This document shows, piece by piece, positions 5,016 to 13,437 of a stretch of DNA of 15,084 nt. The DNA is from Candidatus Desantisiibacteriota bacterium. GTDB taxonomy: Bacteria; JACRDZ01. Under the pieces are notes generated by a model that was given only the letters and a program-made list of their open reading frames with translations, searched no databases and was not told where the DNA came from. The stretch lies in NCBI GenBank assembly GCA_016209155.1, contig JACQWU010000165.1, forward strand, positions 15,062-30,145, written 5' to 3'. Every line of letters begins with the position of its first letter. Within the stretch, counting starts at the first letter, position 1. The translations under genes were made by a program, and so were the position numbers.

Positions 5016-5339
5016 CTACAATTTTTTATTTATCCTATCCTGGACATCCACTACTTGTGCGTTTAATGCCCCTTTTACATTTTCTAATATTACGGGTGTA
5101 ATTGTTAACTCATCTATTTTTTTCTTAGTATAATTAAATTCTTTTTCGTCTTTGATTAATTTTTCATTTAATTCTTCTAATGAGGGATTTAAGACTCTCC
5201 TTCGCGCTTCTATTCTCATTTTTTCTATATCGTCTAAGGAAATCCGGACTAAAAAATCCTTCTCATCTATTGTAAAAGATGCGATTTGTATTTCGTTATC
5301 TACATTTACTTCCTCATCAAAAACCAATTTGGCAACCAT
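5016..5339 (-). CDS. Small coiled-coil protein of unknown function
   Basis: This 107-residue protein begins at an ATG two bases after the preceding TAA (TAATTATG); the purine-rich AGGGAGA SD lies in the last codons of the upstream gene. Residues 1-38 are beta-like (KLVFDEEVNVDNEIQIASF ... FLVRISLDD). Residues 40-80 are highly charged and helical (LEELNEKLIKDEKEFNYTKK), likely a short coiled coil. The C-terminus is helical (NVKGALNAQVVDVQDRINKK). It contains no Cys or Trp and no membrane segment. I do not recognise a family. Its place between the tape measure region and the receptor cassette suggests a tail-tip adaptor, small chaperone or trimerising factor, but that is inference from position only. 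Confidence 0.62.
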   Translation of the reverse strand: MVAKLVFDEEVNVDNEIQIASFTIDEKDFLVRISLDDIEKMRIEARRRVLNPSLEELNEKLIKDEKEFNYTKKKIDELTITPVILENVKGALNAQVVDVQDRINKKL

Positions 5340-5341
5340 AA

Positions 5342-5758
5342 TTATTTCTCCCTAAATCTCAATGATATTGATTGTATTGCTTGTTCAATATCCGGTATAT
5401 ATGATTTATAATATATATCCGAGAATTTTTCGATAAAACATAGATTTTTATATCCGCTATAATTATCTATATATGCCCTGAACCATTGGTATAAGCTACT
5501 TGTATTAGTACAATGCCTATATATTTCATACAGCGCATTAATTTGAGCTAAAAAACAGGTAAAACTAAATTCATATTCACTTTTCCCTAATAAACCATCC
5601 ATACCGCAACAGTAAAAATCCCAGTTACCATCTACTCCTTGCAGCGTTTGCTCAAAATTATTTTCTTTTTCAATCCATTTAACCGGATTAATTTGAAAAA
5701 TCAGTTCTTCTGACCAACTATTATTATTTAGTTTATCCCAGACAAATTTCACATCCAT
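5342..5758 (-). CDS. Unrecognised small protein following the tape measure
   Basis: This 138-residue protein is rich in aromatic residues (many Trp, Tyr and Phe) with several Cys, including FYCCGMDG. The N-terminus MDVKFVWDKLNNNSWSEELIFQINPVKW looks like a beta-rich opening; the middle (TCFLAQINALYEIYRHC) is helical. The ATG at 5758 is the first Met after the tape measure stop at 5766, but no convincing SD lies upstream (AATAGAAAA). Translation may depend on coupling to the tape measure gene, whose stop is seven bases away. In many siphophages this slot holds a distal tail (Dit) protein or a tape-measure-linked minor tail protein. I see no Dit signature, so the role is open. Confidence 0.6.
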   Translation of the reverse strand: MDVKFVWDKLNNNSWSEELIFQINPVKWIEKENNFEQTLQGVDGNWDFYCCGMDGLLGKSEYEFSFTCFLAQINALYEIYRHCTNTSSLYQWFRAYIDNYSGYKNLCFIEKFSDIYYKSYIPDIEQAIQSISLRFREK

Positions 5759-5765
5759 TTTTCTA

Positions 5766-8249
5766 TTAAGAATAACTAGGAATTAAATTTCCCCGCGTTG
5801 TTCTTCGCCTTTTATTTATTTGTGATTCCTCGATTTTTTTCAGTAAATTCGTATCACTCGAATAATAATTATTCGTTTCATATGTAATATATTCTGTCAC
5901 TTGCTTTGTATTGTTTGTTTGAGGATTATTTTCTTTATAGCTCGGAACAAATCTCTCTACCGCAGCCTGTGCGCTCATGCGGTGCAATGGTAATACTACT
6001 TCCTGCCCATGCCCGATCATAATTTGAGGCTGTCCTGAATAACCTGGAATTGTTCCCCCGACATCTTTTGATAACATCGGGGTAACTAAACTTGCTCCTA
6101 GCCCTACTGCCAATCCAACAGGACCGGCTACTGCACCGGCTACTGCTAATCCAGATCCTATTCCAGACAATATTGCCTGTCTTTGTTTTTCAGCTGTAAT
6201 CATTTTTTCTATTGTTAAGATACTTGTCAATAACGGTATTTTTGCAGCTTCTGATAAAGCTAATGTAGTATTGGTAAGTAGTTGCTTATCATATATTGCA
6301 TCTATCCCTGCAGATACCAATTTAGATGCGGCCATTTGAACCGCCATCATCATAGTCGATCTTAATATATCTTCTGCTGATGCTCCCATCAATGACATCG
6401 ATACAACATTTTGAGCCAAACTATTTGTGTATTGTTTTGCAAATTGAATCTTTTGCAATTGCATTTGTACATGTATTGTTTCAAGAGCTTTTATCCTTTG
6501 TGCTCTTGATTCTGCAATAGCAGACAGATCGTTTTCTTTTTGTATTTCTGATGTTATTCTTTTATGTATATTTTCTTCTTCTTTTACTCCGGATATAAGT
6601 GTTGTTTTTAATTCATAAGGTTTATCAATTTTTTTTGGTTCTTCTTGCGTAGATAAAAATTGGGTAGATAAGCTTCCTGATATTTTGAATTGAGTTCCTG
6701 CAAATTTTGCATTAGATTCTAATCTTTCCGCCAGCCGTTTTTTATCTGCCTCGGCCCATTGCTTAGTCAATGTTATTAATGCTGTTATATCTTCTTTTTC
6801 ATCTTGTAAAACCGCTTCAGCTTCTTGCCGTGTAAAACCCATATCTTCTAATATCATAATTCGAGATATTTCTAATAAATTAATTTTTTCTTCATCAGAT
6901 ATTTGATAATTATATGCCTTTAATAATGTTAATCTTTGTTCCTCTTCTTTTTCAACTCCCAAAATGAAATTATTTAGTTCATCATTTAATCTATTTATTT
7001 GTTGCGTTGCTATTGATAAATCCTGCTCTCTTGCTTTAAAATTTTCGTTTGCGGATTTATTTAAATTAGTTGTATTTTTTAATTCTGCCTGTTCTTTTTG
7101 TAACTTTAAAATATCTGCTTCTTGCTTGAGCTTATCTTTATTTGTCTGTAATATATTTTGATCAATAGTATTAATATCAGCAAGATGTGCCTTAACTTTT
7201 TCATAAACACTCATTAATATATTAACATCACCTTTTTCATATCCAGTTAAATCAGGCATATATCTTTTTAATTCTTCATTTGCATATTGTAATTCGCTAG
7301 ATCTCATATCAGCAGATTGATGTTGTCCTTCATACGGATTTGCTGCTATATCTATACGTAATCTAAGCACATCTTCCAACGCTTTTTTTTGAGCAACTAA
7401 TTTTTCTTGTGTATTTTCAGGCACATATAATGCATCAACTGCTTTATCCGCAAGGTCCTTTAACAACCCAACCATTACAGATGATATAGGAATTGTTTTT
7501 TTAACCAGTTCTTCCCACAAATCAGCAAAACTTGATTTCATTCCTTGTACTTTTTCAGATGTTGTTATTGATTCTCCACCAATATTAGTTATTAATTTTG
7601 CCCCTTTTTCTAACACGGCATTTAACACCGCCTGTTGTTTTTCTTCCTCAGATAATTCATCAACTGTTTTATTAATTGATTGCGCATATTCTTTTACCAC
7701 ATCACTTGTATGCACAATAATATTTGCGGATGCCAACATCCTTGACGATTGCCGCGCAATACCTTCAATGATTGTATTAAACATCGTATTAACATCCTGC
7801 CCTGTTGCGCGTGCGGAATATCGAGCCATTTCCAATATACTGCTTATTTTATCAAGCTGAACCCCTAGAACTTGCGCAATATTAGCATCCTGAATCAATT
7901 TGTCCGGTTCAATTATACCTGCCGACACTCTTTTCATATCATTAATGATTGAAGTTGAACTATATCCAGCCGCTGTTGTCATATTTTTGAATGCATCAGA
8001 CATATCTTGTATCTTTGCAACAGCTTCAATTTGTTGAATTGCCACATTAAAATAGTGTATAGCTTTTTCAGCCAGATATATTTTTGAAGTAACAGCGGCC
8101 CACATAACATCCATTTCTAATCCTTTAGATGTTTTTGCTGTATCCTCAGTCGCAGTTTGCACTTTTTTAATCGATTGCTCAACCTTGATCATCCCTGCAA
8201 CCACTTGATCAACCTTAGCTAATATTTCAATCTCTAATTTACTATTCAT
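5766..8249 (-). CDS. Phage tail tape measure protein
   Basis: This 827-residue protein sets tail length and occupies the tube lumen before DNA ejection. Residues about 40-270 resemble the conserved phage minor-tail/tape-measure domain: long amphipathic helices, MTTAAGYSSTSIINDMKRVS, LGVQLDKISSILEMARYSA, then SITTSEKVQGMKSSFADLW. Residues about 360-460 are strongly coiled-coil. A Gly/Ala-rich hydrophobic segment at about 690-726 (GLAVAGAVAGPVGLAVGLGA) could form membrane-active helices during ejection. A C-terminal GGTIPGYSGQPQIMIGHGQE motif is typical of tape measure ends. The ATG overlaps the stop of the chaperone frameshift extension by 8 bases. The SD is modest (AAGG and TGAG upstream), suggesting coupling to the upstream gene. 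At the usual 1.5 angstrom per residue the tail would be about 120 nm (inference). Confidence 0.9.
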   Translation of the reverse strand: MNSKLEIEILAKVDQVVAGMIKVEQSIKKVQTATEDTAKTSKGLEMDVMWAAVTSKIYLAEKAIHYFNVAIQQIEAVAKIQDMSDAFKNMTTAAGYSSTSIINDMKRVSAGIIEPDKLIQDANIAQVLGVQLDKISSILEMARYSARATGQDVNTMFNTIIEGIARQSSRMLASANIIVHTSDVVKEYAQSINKTVDELSEEEKQQAVLNAVLEKGAKLITNIGGESITTSEKVQGMKSSFADLWEELVKKTIPISSVMVGLLKDLADKAVDALYVPENTQEKLVAQKKALEDVLRLRIDIAANPYEGQHQSADMRSSELQYANEELKRYMPDLTGYEKGDVNILMSVYEKVKAHLADINTIDQNILQTNKDKLKQEADILKLQKEQAELKNTTNLNKSANENFKAREQDLSIATQQINRLNDELNNFILGVEKEEEQRLTLLKAYNYQISDEEKINLLEISRIMILEDMGFTRQEAEAVLQDEKEDITALITLTKQWAEADKKRLAERLESNAKFAGTQFKISGSLSTQFLSTQEEPKKIDKPYELKTTLISGVKEEENIHKRITSEIQKENDLSAIAESRAQRIKALETIHVQMQLQKIQFAKQYTNSLAQNVVSMSLMGASAEDILRSTMMMAVQMAASKLVSAGIDAIYDKQLLTNTTLALSEAAKIPLLTSILTIEKMITAEKQRQAILSGIGSGLAVAGAVAGPVGLAVGLGASLVTPMLSKDVGGTIPGYSGQPQIMIGHGQEVVLPLHRMSAQAAVERFVPSYKENNPQTNNTKQVTEYITYETNNYYSSDTNLLKKIEESQINKRRRTTRGNLIPSYS

Positions 8250-8981
8250 TGCTCACAGGCCTTTTTATAATATAATTATTTATTTCATTCATTGTATTAC
8301 TTATCACCCTGAAAATTTGATATATATGCGCAGATTGATTTAACATTCCGCCGCTGTCCGGCAAACATTTTAAGTTTTCACACATAACATATAAATTAAT
8401 CATTTCATTTACTTCATAGATATATTGTTTTTTCTCATTCAACAATGCTATTGGACATCGATGAAGCAACACATCCAATAAAAACAATTCCGTTTCCGGC
8501 TCTGCTTTACACCCTCTTATGCCTTGATAAGAGGGTTCAGTACATTCATTACAATTCCAAGTTTTATATTTTTCATCTAATTTAACTTTTAAATATAAAA
8601 CTAACGTATCAAAAAATCCTGTGCTACCTCTGAAAAGTTATTAATTACATGCAAAATTTCAGTAGTATTATCAAGAGATAATATTTCAAAAACCTTATTT
8701 GTATCAATTTTACCTGCTATGACTGGAAAAGGGATAACATTCCCTTTTCTATCTTTTTTAATCCAATCTTTTAAACATTCTTCGAATTTTAAATTAAGCT
8801 GTTCTTCAAGTGGTTTCCCTACTGCCTTAACCAGCAAAAGCCCTGATGGATTTTTAATTTTATATACATCTCTTTTATCTTCCGGCAGGTCTCTGTCTGC
8901 TAAAAGTACATATGATATTACTTCGTTTGAATCAACTTTAATAATCTGTTTTTTAGTTTCTTTTTTTTCTTCTTTCTGCAT
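8242..8981 (-). CDS. Tail assembly chaperone fusion (GT-like) made by -1 frameshift
   Basis: The frame one base behind the chaperone gene is open from a TAA near 8640 through the slippery heptamer to TAG at 8244-8242. Shifting -1 at TTTTTTG (8616-8610) would replace the last two codons (ATA CGT, then TAG) with a 122-residue extension starting DTLVLYLKVKLDEKYKTWNC. The fusion would be 246 residues, close in plan to lambda gpG-T. The extension carries WNCNEC, GC and RCP, four cysteines that could bind a metal, and LPDSGGMLNQ, which resembles the 'lP.aGgllDQp' motif of other phage chaperone extensions. Its end overlaps the tape measure start, as expected for a T domain that recruits the tape measure protein. 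A separate gene from a TTG at 8487 is the alternative, but no SD or ATG supports it. Confidence 0.78.
8511..8536. repeat. 10-bp stem-loop within the chaperone T-like extension
   Basis: ACCCTCTTAT (8511-8520) and ATAAGAGGGT (8527-8536) are perfect complements with a 6-base loop. On the transcript it begins about 74 bases after the slippery site, too far for a classic frameshift stimulator. It has more G+C than its surroundings. It may be a secondary structure affecting ribosome flow, or chance. Confidence 0.55.
8560..8616 (-). promoter_or_regulatory. Programmed -1 ribosomal frameshift signal
   Basis: Read on the minus strand, a slippery heptamer T TTT TTG (8616-8610, grouped in the chaperone's zero frame) is followed by a 7-base spacer (8609-8603). 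Then comes a perfect 12-bp stem, AGTTTTATATTT (8602-8591) pairing with AAATATAAAACT (8571-8560), around a 19-base loop. X XXY YYZ plus a 5-9 base spacer plus a stem is the classic -1 layout. The zero-frame stop TAG (8603-8601) begins at the last spacer base and overlaps the foot of the stem. The stem is nearly all A-U, so its strength is modest. Confidence 0.75.
8601..8981 (-). CDS. Tail assembly chaperone (G-like), zero-frame product
   Basis: This 126-residue protein starts with an ATG preceded by a strong AAGGAGG SD seven bases upstream. It has a highly charged Lys/Glu-rich N-terminus (MQKEEKKETKKQ), then a compact alpha/beta stretch (VISYVLLADRDLPEDKRDVYKIKNP). The C-terminus is helical (NKVFEILSLDNTTEILHVIN) and ends VAQDFLIR. 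Sequence similarity to a named family is weak. The assignment rests on position (tail tube gene, this gene, then tape measure), on length, and on the frameshift signal in its last codons leading into a frame that reaches the tape measure start. In lambda the equivalent G and GT proteins coat the tape measure protein and recruit tube subunits, and are absent from the finished virion. The zero-frame product should be the abundant form. Confidence 0.8.
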   Translation of the reverse strand: MQKEEKKETKKQIIKVDSNEVISYVLLADRDLPEDKRDVYKIKNPSGLLLVKAVGKPLEEQLNLKFEECLKDWIKKDRKGNVIPFPVIAGKIDTNKVFEILSLDNTTEILHVINNFSEVAQDFLIR

Positions 8982-9023
8982 ATATATTCCTCCTTATATT
9001 TTTTTTAGCCAGTACCACATCAG

Positions 9024-10514
9024 TTATACTGTTAAAGTATCAATCGTCTCAAAATATACCGGTGGAGCGTTATAAATCACAATCTGATCAATATTTGGTT
9101 CAGTTGTTATTCCCGCACCGATACATTTAATCCCAAGCCCAATCCCCTGTACGCTATTAATTGTCCCAACGCCCATATCAGTTGGTCTTTCTATTACGAT
9201 GTACCCATCTTGAGTCATATTAAGAGTTCCATCGTATATTATTTTTCCAAGCTTATCCAAACTTGACGCACCATCAGATGTATATCTTATTTCCGCATTA
9301 GTCCCAAAAACCAGTCCAACCGCCGGAGTGATAATTTTGAAATATACAACCTCAATTGGTATTTTACTCAGGATAACACAATAATCCCCGCTTTCAGCTG
9401 TAGCAGTATCTGAGAACATGTCAAAATAGTTAGCTCCTAAATCCTTTGCCGAGGCAGTTTTATCGTAAAATGTTACTTCAGATAAATCATAAGTAAATAC
9501 TTTAATAATTAAATTATCATTATCTCCACAATTAGCCTCGTTAATTCCAAGTAACTTACAATCTAAACTTTCCTGTGTTCTTTTCCCGCCGGTTTTACTT
9601 TTTGGGGTAGGGTCTTTTTTTAGCATAACGCGCGGCATAGTAGCAGTATGCATATATTTATTACCATCCTGTCCGACAGTTTCTATCGTATCACCATGAG
9701 TCAACACATACTTAACCAACATTGAATTCCCAGCATGAAACAAAGTCCAAAAATCAGCTGATGCTAAAAATTTTTCTATCTTTAACGAAAAAGCCGAAGA
9801 ATAAATTGTTCCATCCTTAAAAAATTCATCCGGATTTATACTTCCTAAAACAAAACTATCCAATACCCGTTTTAAATCCAGAGATAAAACCATTTTTTGA
9901 ATTTTGACAGGTGTAGATAAATTATCCATATAACCATAAGCATGGCTAAACATATAAGGCGCTTTACGAGTTGCATCAGTTAGCCCTGTAGTTTTATTTT
10001 CAAGAGTAACAACGTTTTTACATCCTCCCGACATTTTATATTCAATTTTTTTTCCGGCATCAAGCGTGATATCAAATTTATTTGGCATCCCGCCTGTAGC
10101 TAATTTATTATATAGCCCGCCGATAACCTGTTCTAATGATATTCCACCAGCTGGAGGATTATATCCCGGGATTGTCATATGCGACCTTCTAAGCGTTGCT
10201 AGTGGAGGCGTCATAACATAATTTTCACCTAAAAATTTCATAATACGATTAAATACTTTTGAGTTTGGCCGGAGCAATTGACCAATATTAATATCTCCCC
10301 GCACAGTTGTCCTTATAACCTCGCCAGTTGAAAACGGAGATGTTCTTATTTCCGATTTATCCGCCTCCTCCTCTTGTACTATTTTTTCAACATCAAACTC
10401 AGTGAATTCTTCCAAAATAGTACTCGCAACAAAAGTCCCATTGACAACTTCATCGCCAATCATACCTATACGCTCATTGTCATATACTTTAACTGGATTT
10501 TGATCAAATGACAT
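9024..10514 (-). CDS. Major tail tube protein with long C-terminal extension
   Basis: This 496-residue protein starts at an ATG with a GGAGGG SD. The N-terminal 300 residues have the look of a tail tube fold: FTEFDVEKIVQEEEADKSE, alternating beta strands (GEVIRTTVRGDINIGQLLRP), KIEYKMSGGCKNVVTLEN, and PYMFSHAYGYMDNLSTPVKI followed by VLSLDLKRVLDSFVLGSI. The long hydrophilic loop around KKDPTPKSKTGGKRTQ (residues about 295-312) may link to a C-terminal beta domain (residues about 320-496). Tube proteins are usually about 150-300 residues, so the extra domain could project from the tail surface. No tail sheath is recognisable, and a frameshifting chaperone and tape measure follow, so a single tube protein of a siphovirus-type tail fits best. 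A sheath protein is the main alternative. Confidence 0.72.
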   Translation of the reverse strand: MSFDQNPVKVYDNERIGMIGDEVVNGTFVASTILEEFTEFDVEKIVQEEEADKSEIRTSPFSTGEVIRTTVRGDINIGQLLRPNSKVFNRIMKFLGENYVMTPPLATLRRSHMTIPGYNPPAGGISLEQVIGGLYNKLATGGMPNKFDITLDAGKKIEYKMSGGCKNVVTLENKTTGLTDATRKAPYMFSHAYGYMDNLSTPVKIQKMVLSLDLKRVLDSFVLGSINPDEFFKDGTIYSSAFSLKIEKFLASADFWTLFHAGNSMLVKYVLTHGDTIETVGQDGNKYMHTATMPRVMLKKDPTPKSKTGGKRTQESLDCKLLGINEANCGDNDNLIIKVFTYDLSEVTFYDKTASAKDLGANYFDMFSDTATAESGDYCVILSKIPIEVVYFKIITPAVGLVFGTNAEIRYTSDGASSLDKLGKIIYDGTLNMTQDGYIVIERPTDMGVGTINSVQGIGLGIKCIGAGITTEPNIDQIVIYNAPPVYFETIDTLTV

Positions 10515-11593: not shown

Positions 11594-12574
11594 TCATGTA
11601 GTCCTGGTATCTTTCCACAAATACCCCAGTCCGCTATCAACCTGTCTAATATCAATTTCCTCAGCAACCTCATACACCTGCTGATGTTCAGCATCTTCAT
11701 AATAAGTATATGTTGCGCGAGGTAATCCATTAGATGCATATACAAGCCTTGCCTGTACTCCTGCCATTGGCATTTCCAACCCTGGTGTTTCATCGGCGTT
11801 GTAAACCAAAAATGCCGACCCTTTACCCGCATTCTTTTCCCATATCAGCCTGTTTGTAAATTCCGTCCCTGCTTTTGTTTCTTTTGCAGTGTTCTCAATC
11901 GGATAAGCAACAACAACATCCTTAATTTTCAAGACTTTTGCAAGTATGTCTTCAGTTACAATTGCCCTCTCGGTGTGTGACATCATTGCCAGCACTGTTG
12001 ATTCTTTGCAAATTTGATTAAAAGTCATAAAATCAACAAATAATCTAAGTAAGTCAGGGGTTACTCCGGAATACAAAAATATCTGTTCTATCCCATTTGC
12101 AATATCAACAAGGAATGTATTCCCTGTGCCTGCCGCCCATTTTCCTTCCGCATCTTCACCGGCTGCAACTCCGCACCATGTTGCGTCTAAAACGCTAGAC
12201 GCACATATAATTTCACGTGCCAAATCGACTTTATTGGTGCTATGATTAATGGCATTCTCTTCGAGTCTGAGAGGATATGCATTTGGAGCTTGCTGATAAT
12301 CTTTTTGCTTATCCGGTACCGGTGTAGCATGACAATTTTCAGTTGTGCTAATAGATGTTTCTGTCATTTTGTAAGTACTGCGTGGTGCACGCCCGGTTTC
12401 AGCTCTTTTCCCTGCATCATTCCTAAACCAGTCCGCACGTAAATATTTTGGTATTTTTGCTTTTGGATCATAGACATCCACTATAGGATATATTTTATCT
12501 GCAATATATCTATTTAGTGGATTTCTTACCGCAATATTTGCAAGTGGACCACCAACTAAATTTTTTCTTTCCAT
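11594..12574 (-). CDS. Major capsid protein
   Basis: This 326-residue protein would build the icosahedral shell, probably with an HK97 fold. It follows the protease/scaffold and cement genes and precedes a gp36-like gene, the Mu-type order. Visible features: an N-terminal arm (PLANIAVRNPLNRYIADKIYP) with early proline and Arg/Lys; the E-loop region (KIPKYLRADWFRNDAGKRAE); a long central helix (ENAINHSTNKVDLAREIICA); a P-domain stretch (PDLLRLFVDFMTFNQICKES); and a C-terminal strand set (YTYYEDAEHQQVYEVAEEID). Length is normal for Mu-type capsid proteins. The ATG has GGAAGGTG upstream, and palindromic repeats flank the gene on both sides. Unlike HK97 itself there is no long N-terminal delta domain, which fits a separate scaffold. 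Confidence 0.87.
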   Translation of the reverse strand: MERKNLVGGPLANIAVRNPLNRYIADKIYPIVDVYDPKAKIPKYLRADWFRNDAGKRAETGRAPRSTYKMTETSISTTENCHATPVPDKQKDYQQAPNAYPLRLEENAINHSTNKVDLAREIICASSVLDATWCGVAAGEDAEGKWAAGTGNTFLVDIANGIEQIFLYSGVTPDLLRLFVDFMTFNQICKESTVLAMMSHTERAIVTEDILAKVLKIKDVVVAYPIENTAKETKAGTEFTNRLIWEKNAGKGSAFLVYNADETPGLEMPMAGVQARLVYASNGLPRATYTYYEDAEHQQVYEVAEEIDIRQVDSGLGYLWKDTRTT

Positions 12575-12612: not shown

Positions 12613-12637
12613 TCATTCCCGCGAAGGCGGGAATCCA
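12613..12637. repeat. ATTCCC-N8-GGGAAT palindromic repeat, copy 1
   Basis: The core ATTCCCGC (12615-12622) pairs with GCGGGAAT (12627-12634) around a GAAG loop, flanked by TC on the left and CCA on the right. It lies between the cement gene stop and the capsid gene SD. The pattern ATTCCC-N8-GGGAAT matches the Neisseria dRS3 consensus, and similar repeats are scattered in other genomes (established knowledge plus memory). Copy 2 at 13397-13421 is in the same orientation and differs only at two loop bases over 25 bp. Confidence 0.85.
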
Positions 12638-12640
12638 ATA

Positions 12641-13372
12641 CTAAACCGTTGTTAATGCAACTCCATCATTTGCTGTTACTCTCCACACCAAAGCCGCACC
12701 TACTGTCATTGCAGTCAAAACTATCATATCTTTCACAGCGCCAAAAGTAAGAGTATTGTTACCGGCCTGGTTCACCGCCGCTGATACTGTAATTACAATA
12801 TTCCCAACATGAGTATCATCGATTAAGGCAATTTCCTGCCCAATGAAAGTTGGAATTGCAAGAGTTCTTGTCTCTGCACCGGCAGAAGTCAATGCGCATA
12901 CACCTGATGCAGTTACAGCTATTGCCCCAGAATCTCCCGGATCTGCAATTGCATTATTCATTGAGTTAAGCGTTGATGTTGTTAATTGCGTCATTGGAGT
13001 AAGCAAAACCGATGCAAGATCATCCTCAGCGCCTGATGGTTCGATTATCATCCCAGCAGGATACTGTGTTGCAATAGCAGCTTGCGCCTTACCTGCATCA
13101 GTAGCATCAACATATTCAATTGTAACAATAGTCCCATTTACAAGCGCGCCTGATGTTTCAATTTTTGATATACCTCCTGATCCTACTACAGCAATGTCTG
13201 CCGCTTCACCGGCAGCAGGAGCGTTTTGCAAAACCCCAAAAGGTTTTTCAGTAGCAGAATTAGGGCGCCGCACTTTTCCTTCAGACGTTAATACTACTAT
13301 TTTATATTGATCATTACTTAAATCCTCATCAGCAAGTCTTGAAACCACTAAAAGTTTATTTTCAGTTGCCAT
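12641..13372 (-). CDS. Capsid cement/decoration protein with two domains
   Basis: This 243-residue protein sits between protease/scaffold and capsid, the usual place for a head decoration protein. Residues about 1-125 match the DUF2190-type capsid cement pattern: YKIVVLTSEGKVRRPNSATE, KPFGVLQNAPAAGEAADIAV, GTIVTIEY, AGMIIEPSGAEDDLASVLL. Residues about 140-243 form a second beta-rich domain: DPGDSGAIAVTASGVCAL, ETRTLAIPTFIGQEIALI, GNIVITVSAAVNQAGNN, VWRVTANDGVALTTV. That domain resembles modules found in several phage head and fibre proteins. The fusion is longer than the usual cement protein (about 110-150 residues). The SD is very strong, AGGAGGTGA, suggesting high expression as expected for a shell component. 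It probably binds the capsid outer surface and stabilises the shell. Confidence 0.83.
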   Translation of the reverse strand: MATENKLLVVSRLADEDLSNDQYKIVVLTSEGKVRRPNSATEKPFGVLQNAPAAGEAADIAVVGSGGISKIETSGALVNGTIVTIEYVDATDAGKAQAAIATQYPAGMIIEPSGAEDDLASVLLTPMTQLTTSTLNSMNNAIADPGDSGAIAVTASGVCALTSAGAETRTLAIPTFIGQEIALIDDTHVGNIVITVSAAVNQAGNNTLTFGAVKDMIVLTAMTVGAALVWRVTANDGVALTTV

Positions 13373-13396
13373 ATTTCTTTCACCTCCTATTTTTTG

Positions 13397-13421
13397 TCAT
13401 TCCCGCAAAAGCGGGAATCCA
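13397..13421. repeat. ATTCCC-N8-GGGAAT palindromic repeat, copy 2
   Basis: The core ATTCCCGC (13399-13406) pairs with GCGGGAAT (13411-13418) around an AAAA loop, with TC and CCA flanks identical to copy 1. It lies between the protease/scaffold stop and the SD of the cement gene. On the transcript the stem is followed by an A-run, not a U-run, so it does not read as an intrinsic terminator for the head operon. Confidence 0.85.
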
Positions 13422-13437
13422 GTATTTAAAACATATT

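Follow-up and report, generated by a model that had tools for sequence, protein, structure and literature searches.

Programmed frameshifting in a tail assembly chaperone gene, by which one gene gives both a short and a long helper protein, is used by nearly all long-tailed phages. The G/GT slippery site of phage lambda differs from the one described here, which lies in a stretch of 15,084 nucleotides from a Candidatus Desantisiibacteriota bacterium (the whole stretch analysed, from now on referred to as the window). The lambda system, in which ribosomes shift by -1 at a low level close to the 3' end of G, and its wide conservation have been reviewed (PMC5009743); the window shares with it the order tail tube - G - T - tape measure and comparable protein sizes, and its site is likewise situated near the end of G, where slipping would probably also be infrequent. 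It differs from lambda in that neither of the two proteins could be matched to annotated chaperone families, searches with the G of the window giving no match to PHROG or Pfam families and those with its T none to annotated chaperone families.

In phage P2 the published frameshift site of E/E+E' (Christie et al. 2002) is TTTTTTG, with 37 nt of E' lying inside E and without a hairpin detected downstream (PMC3091744, PMC3931495). The window contains the identical heptamer near the end of the zero-frame gene, the same overlap of 37 nt and, as in P2, a -1 extension that runs into the next gene and lacks a ribosome binding site of its own. P2 is however a myovirus whose two proteins are 91 and 142 aa long and for which no hairpin was found, while G and GT of the window consist of 126 and 246 aa and two hairpins are predicted downstream of the site.

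The site in the window is, with a probability of about 0.93, a -1 programmed frameshift of the G/GT type in the tail assembly chaperone gene of a siphovirus-type prophage. Heptamer, gene order and purpose were familiar already and only the lineage is new; a well-known recoding mechanism is extended to a prophage from a bacterial phylum of which few members have been sampled, while the understanding of frameshifting itself is unchanged. The annotation of one tail gene is corrected, and a T-domain family is defined which in several named phages has been annotated from false starts.

The features of the locus are the following.

5766–8249, minus strand: tape measure protein, 827 aa, related to the T5-type pb2
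8242–8610, minus strand: T-domain extension in the -1 frame, 122 codons and a stop (DTLVLYLKVKLDEKYKTWNCNEC...), with homologues in the phage L114 and in Rhizobium, Agrobacterium and Rhodobacter phages
8511–8536, minus strand: predicted second hairpin, ACCCTCTTAT-CAAGGC-ATAAGAGGGT, 10 bp with a loop of 6 nt, 73 nt after the heptamer
8560–8571, minus strand: 3' arm of a 12-bp stem, pairing with 8602–8591
8591–8602, minus strand: 5' arm of the 12-bp stem, separated from the heptamer by 7 nt
8601–8981, minus strand: G-like tail assembly chaperone, zero-frame ORF of 126 aa, so named because it lies after the presumed tail tube and before the tape measure, and from weak local similarity to G of the loci L016 and L036
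8610–8616, minus strand: slippery heptamer T TTT TTG, in zero-frame register and two codons ahead of the zero-frame stop
8989–8995, minus strand: strong Shine-Dalgarno sequence AAGGAGG of the G gene, identified from the sequence
9024–10514, minus strand: presumed tail tube protein, 496 aa, from position and size only and with no family match

The G/T pair is located after the presumed tail tube gene and directly upstream of the tape measure gene, and the neighbouring genes form a phage head and tail module with a head maturation protease, a major head protein, a Mu gp36-like head-tail adaptor and a tail completion protein. The window forms the terminal part of a 30-kb contig in a metagenome-assembled genome and, since the other part of the contig carries bacterial-type genes, the phage region is most likely a prophage. 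Between the head genes, at 12613–12653 and 13369–13424, copies were observed of a short dispersed repeat that matches the host genome at about 20 other places, and these tie the phage contig to that genome.

On the minus strand the 3' end of G reads GTA GCA CAG GAT TTT TTG ATA CGT TAG, with the TAG ending at 8601. When the register was recomputed from the sequence the YYZ of the heptamer closed on a zero-frame codon boundary, and the placing of T TTT TTG in register two codons before the stop, made in a preliminary description of this DNA, was confirmed at 8616–8610. The -1 frame is open already from 8637, nine codons upstream of the slip site, which gives the 37-nt overlap with G at a -1 offset, and recomputation agreed with the earlier statement that it continues for 122 more codons and overlaps the start of the tape measure gene by 8 bases (T stop at 8244–8242, tape measure ATG at 8249). 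The T domain is cysteine-rich and encoded in the -1 frame only, so that it would be present only in the 246 aa fusion. As had been proposed, the extension lacks an ATG and a Shine-Dalgarno sequence of its own; near its beginning there is neither a start codon nor a Shine-Dalgarno sequence, and the first ATG within the frame is found at 8403.

How much the heptamer itself can tell was addressed by counting. In the A+T-rich window TTTTTTG was observed 10 times against 11.4 expected, in-frame X XXY YYZ motifs occupy ~1.2% of the codon positions (57 in ~4,800 codons), and the chance of an in-register slippery heptamer anywhere in an overlap of 37 nt is ~1 in 8. Among 1,266 ORFs a background of 2.5% have a slippery heptamer in the last three slots before the stop. 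The heptamer by itself is little proof, and it is its position and the homologues that carry the case.

Searching viral and genome collections directly with G, the tail tube and the tape measure revealed no close relatives. Relatives were reached via the major head protein (37–49% identical), whereupon their tail modules were read, and later via the T domain. The T of L114, a phage in IMG/VR, resembles that of the window with E 7e-5 in tblastn and E 2e-8 in pairwise comparison, and the T of Rhizobium phage vB_RleS_L338C matches at 32.6% over residues 19–108 (tblastn E 2e-3, phage collection); both have a G ORF on one side and the tape measure on the other. From L338C and Rhizobium phage RHph_I4, the latter found in the same phage collection, a T-domain search led further to Agrobacterium phage JP1, Rhizobium phage RHph_TM16 and the Rhodobacter phages RcTiptonus, RcDurkin, RcMenchie and RcZahn. 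The signature shared by the T domains is Cx2C ... C ... RCP ... LPxxGG, of which Cx2C is invariant, and T adjoins the tape measure wherever the record shows a tape measure.

In all T-domain homologues examined T is found in the -1 frame relative to G, with an in-register slippery heptamer in the overlap. The G ORF of L114 ends GAA AAA AAC TGA, that is with A AAA AAC immediately before the stop, and the same heptamer is used by JP1, RHph_TM16 and RcZahn, in the last of these four codons before the stop. RcTiptonus differs from the window by its A AAA AAG situated 27 codons before the stop, but like RcZahn it has a homologous T next to the tape measure at a -1 offset; gp42 of RcTiptonus and gp28 of RcZahn are annotated as tail assembly chaperone. 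L338C and RHph_I4 share with the window the homologous T domain, the -1 geometry and two tandem predicted downstream hairpins, while their heptamer is GGGAAAC, one codon before the G stop, and their genes are annotated only as hypothetical proteins. It is because of this homology, with the T domain, the -1 offset and a heptamer all conserved, that the frameshift reading is regarded as the best explanation and that the likening to lambda G/GT in the preliminary description holds; a homologue keeping both frames without a heptamer, which had been named there as contrary evidence, was not met with among the T-domain homologues examined.

The same comparisons bear on other explanations of the extension. 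A mechanical ORF of 81 aa does run from a TTG in the T frame (8487–8242), the one earlier described as spurious, and T could in principle be a separate gene starting either there or by translational coupling at the G stop, as phages of this group can use coupling (the locus L013, below). This is very improbable, as the homology to T of L114 and the Rhizobium phages begins at T residues 16–19 and includes the invariant Cx2C, ahead of the TTG which is residue 42; from 8637 to 8487 the only other start codon in the T frame is a rare ATA at 8520, with no Shine-Dalgarno sequence there. Since the homology starts ahead of the first likely start codon, internal initiation fails to explain the extension. 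The run of six T might owe its length to faulty sequencing or assembly, or to a genuine 1-base indel, the true gene then being one continuous ORF or a broken one; this is suggested by the homopolymer and by the fragmented state of the metagenome-assembled genome (352 contigs). Isolated and independently sequenced phages however have their -1 offset at this same position although their heptamers differ, for which reason an error fails to explain the extension, and we consider this explanation extremely unlikely. The run of T might also let the RNA polymerase slip, the fusion then being made by transcriptional and not by ribosomal slippage, but known sites of this kind are runs of more than 8 T (PMC3711429), longer than the T6 of the window, and homologues manage with GGGAAAC, which is not a homopolymer; the probability of this is put at next to nothing.

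The preliminary description had also expected automatic annotation to miss or miscall the extension, which is what was observed in three of the homologues. At L134 4082–4339 (Rhizobium L338C), L138 1615–1800 (Agrobacterium JP1) and L137 1633–1878 (Rhodobacter RcTiptonus) T is annotated from a start codon too far downstream, 99–132 bases after the G stop, as a shortened hypothetical protein, and the frameshift is unannotated.

For the G part, the G of the window aligns weakly, over local stretches, with those of L016 (E 0.003) and L036 (E 0.016), and the G proteins of L036 and L042 match PHROG 313 'Tail assembly chaperone'. AlphaFold models (pLDDT 43 for G and 55 for T) were too poor for fold search or comparison.

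Under the programmed frameshift, most ribosomes would read G through to the TAG at 8601, giving the 126 aa protein, while a minority would slip back one base on T TTT TTG, aided by structured downstream mRNA, and produce the 246 aa GT. If lambda is taken as the model, the tape measure protein might carry a coat of many G and few GT, with T recruiting tail tube subunits. At sites of the U UUU UUA type slippage occurs in tandem in the P and A sites, and a tRNA-Leu would decode the TTG before slipping. If T TTT TTG slips in this way, ...AQDFL-DTLVLY is expected as the predominant junction peptide; the AQDFF-DTLVLY proposed earlier stands as a minor form but not as the sole one. The heptamer T TTT TTG is absent from the efficient E. 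coli heptamers listed in PMC4066793, a point against the site although P2 uses this heptamer; the absence also fits a low-level production of the fusion.

Downstream of the heptamer the coordinates of the first stem were recomputed and found exact: 12 perfect pairs (8602–8591 with 8571–8560), a loop of 19 nt and a spacer of 7 nt. The pairs are nearly all A-U and the stem is weak. The cassette had been called complete on these elements, and heptamer, spacer and stem are indeed as described, but the second hairpin (8536–8511), which is more G-C rich than the first stem and unique in the genome, had been overlooked. A stem of at least 12 bp starting 4–10 nt downstream has a probability of ~0.0003 by dinucleotide shuffles as compared to 0.022 by synonymous-codon shuffles, and the folding energy of the 12-bp stem alone is ordinary for its composition (z -0.40). 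Folding of the 100 nt starting 3 nt past the heptamer is more stable than in codon-preserving shuffles (p 0.015), largely because of the second hairpin. At 12 less related sites the downstream structure likewise exceeds codon-preserving shuffles (Fisher p ~5e-6), and downstream structure is probably selected across the family. The 12-bp stem on its own has moderate support as a stimulator, and the second hairpin is possibly part of a composite one. That T TTT TTG is driven by an unusual composite stimulator, a near-pure A-U stem of 12 bp followed by the G-C richer hairpin of 10 bp, in a layout common to the distantly related Rhizobium phages, seems doubtful; in these relatives the left arm of the second hairpin is in a different codon phase from that of the window.

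An Rfam search of the region gave nothing. The possibility that the second hairpin is a dispersed repeat was rejected, no other copy being found in the genome. An SD-like AGAGG is situated 10 nt upstream of the heptamer and is significant when compared against gene positions, but was rejected as an upstream stimulator in synonymous shuffles (p 0.17 for the window and 0.14 for the family); its apparent significance is due to acidic and Gly-rich codons at the C terminus of G. Elsewhere on the minus strand, within an ORF of the tail region, a perfect 14-bp hairpin with a loop of 6 nt was noticed at 2760–2727, the longest perfect hairpin of that strand.

When phages with the same head module were surveyed more widely, at least 14 further loci were found that have a slippery heptamer at the end of the G ORF, -1 geometry and a T ORF reaching as far as the tape measure, a count that is illustrative as the loci were picked by their heptamer and form a biased sample. 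The heptamers are mostly A AAA AAC, placed 0–2 codons before the stop, against the 2.5% background of ORFs. The phages sharing the head module are not uniform in their G/T arrangement. At L013 12414–12734 (the same phage as L108) there is no heptamer and the initial ATG of the T ORF overlaps the stop of G (ATGA), so that translational coupling may have replaced the frameshift there. In L038 and L099 G stops at 12461, and ...TCC TGT TGA and ...TCC TCC TGA respectively are followed by T in the +1 frame, a sequence arrangement that suggests +1 frameshifting at the stop codon. In the T5-like Enterobacter phage KKP_3711 (L031, 4075–4903) the minor tail protein and the tape measure are separated by two ORFs whose phase is +1, which differs from the window. 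In L122, another of the loci read, a methyltransferase-like ORF contains at 5129–6208 poly-Asn runs and a segment resembling a REP-associated transposase, and neighbouring genes carry the repeated peptides 'VGQAFLPV' and 'CQTGMSDLP', an apparent case of repeat elements translated inside genes.
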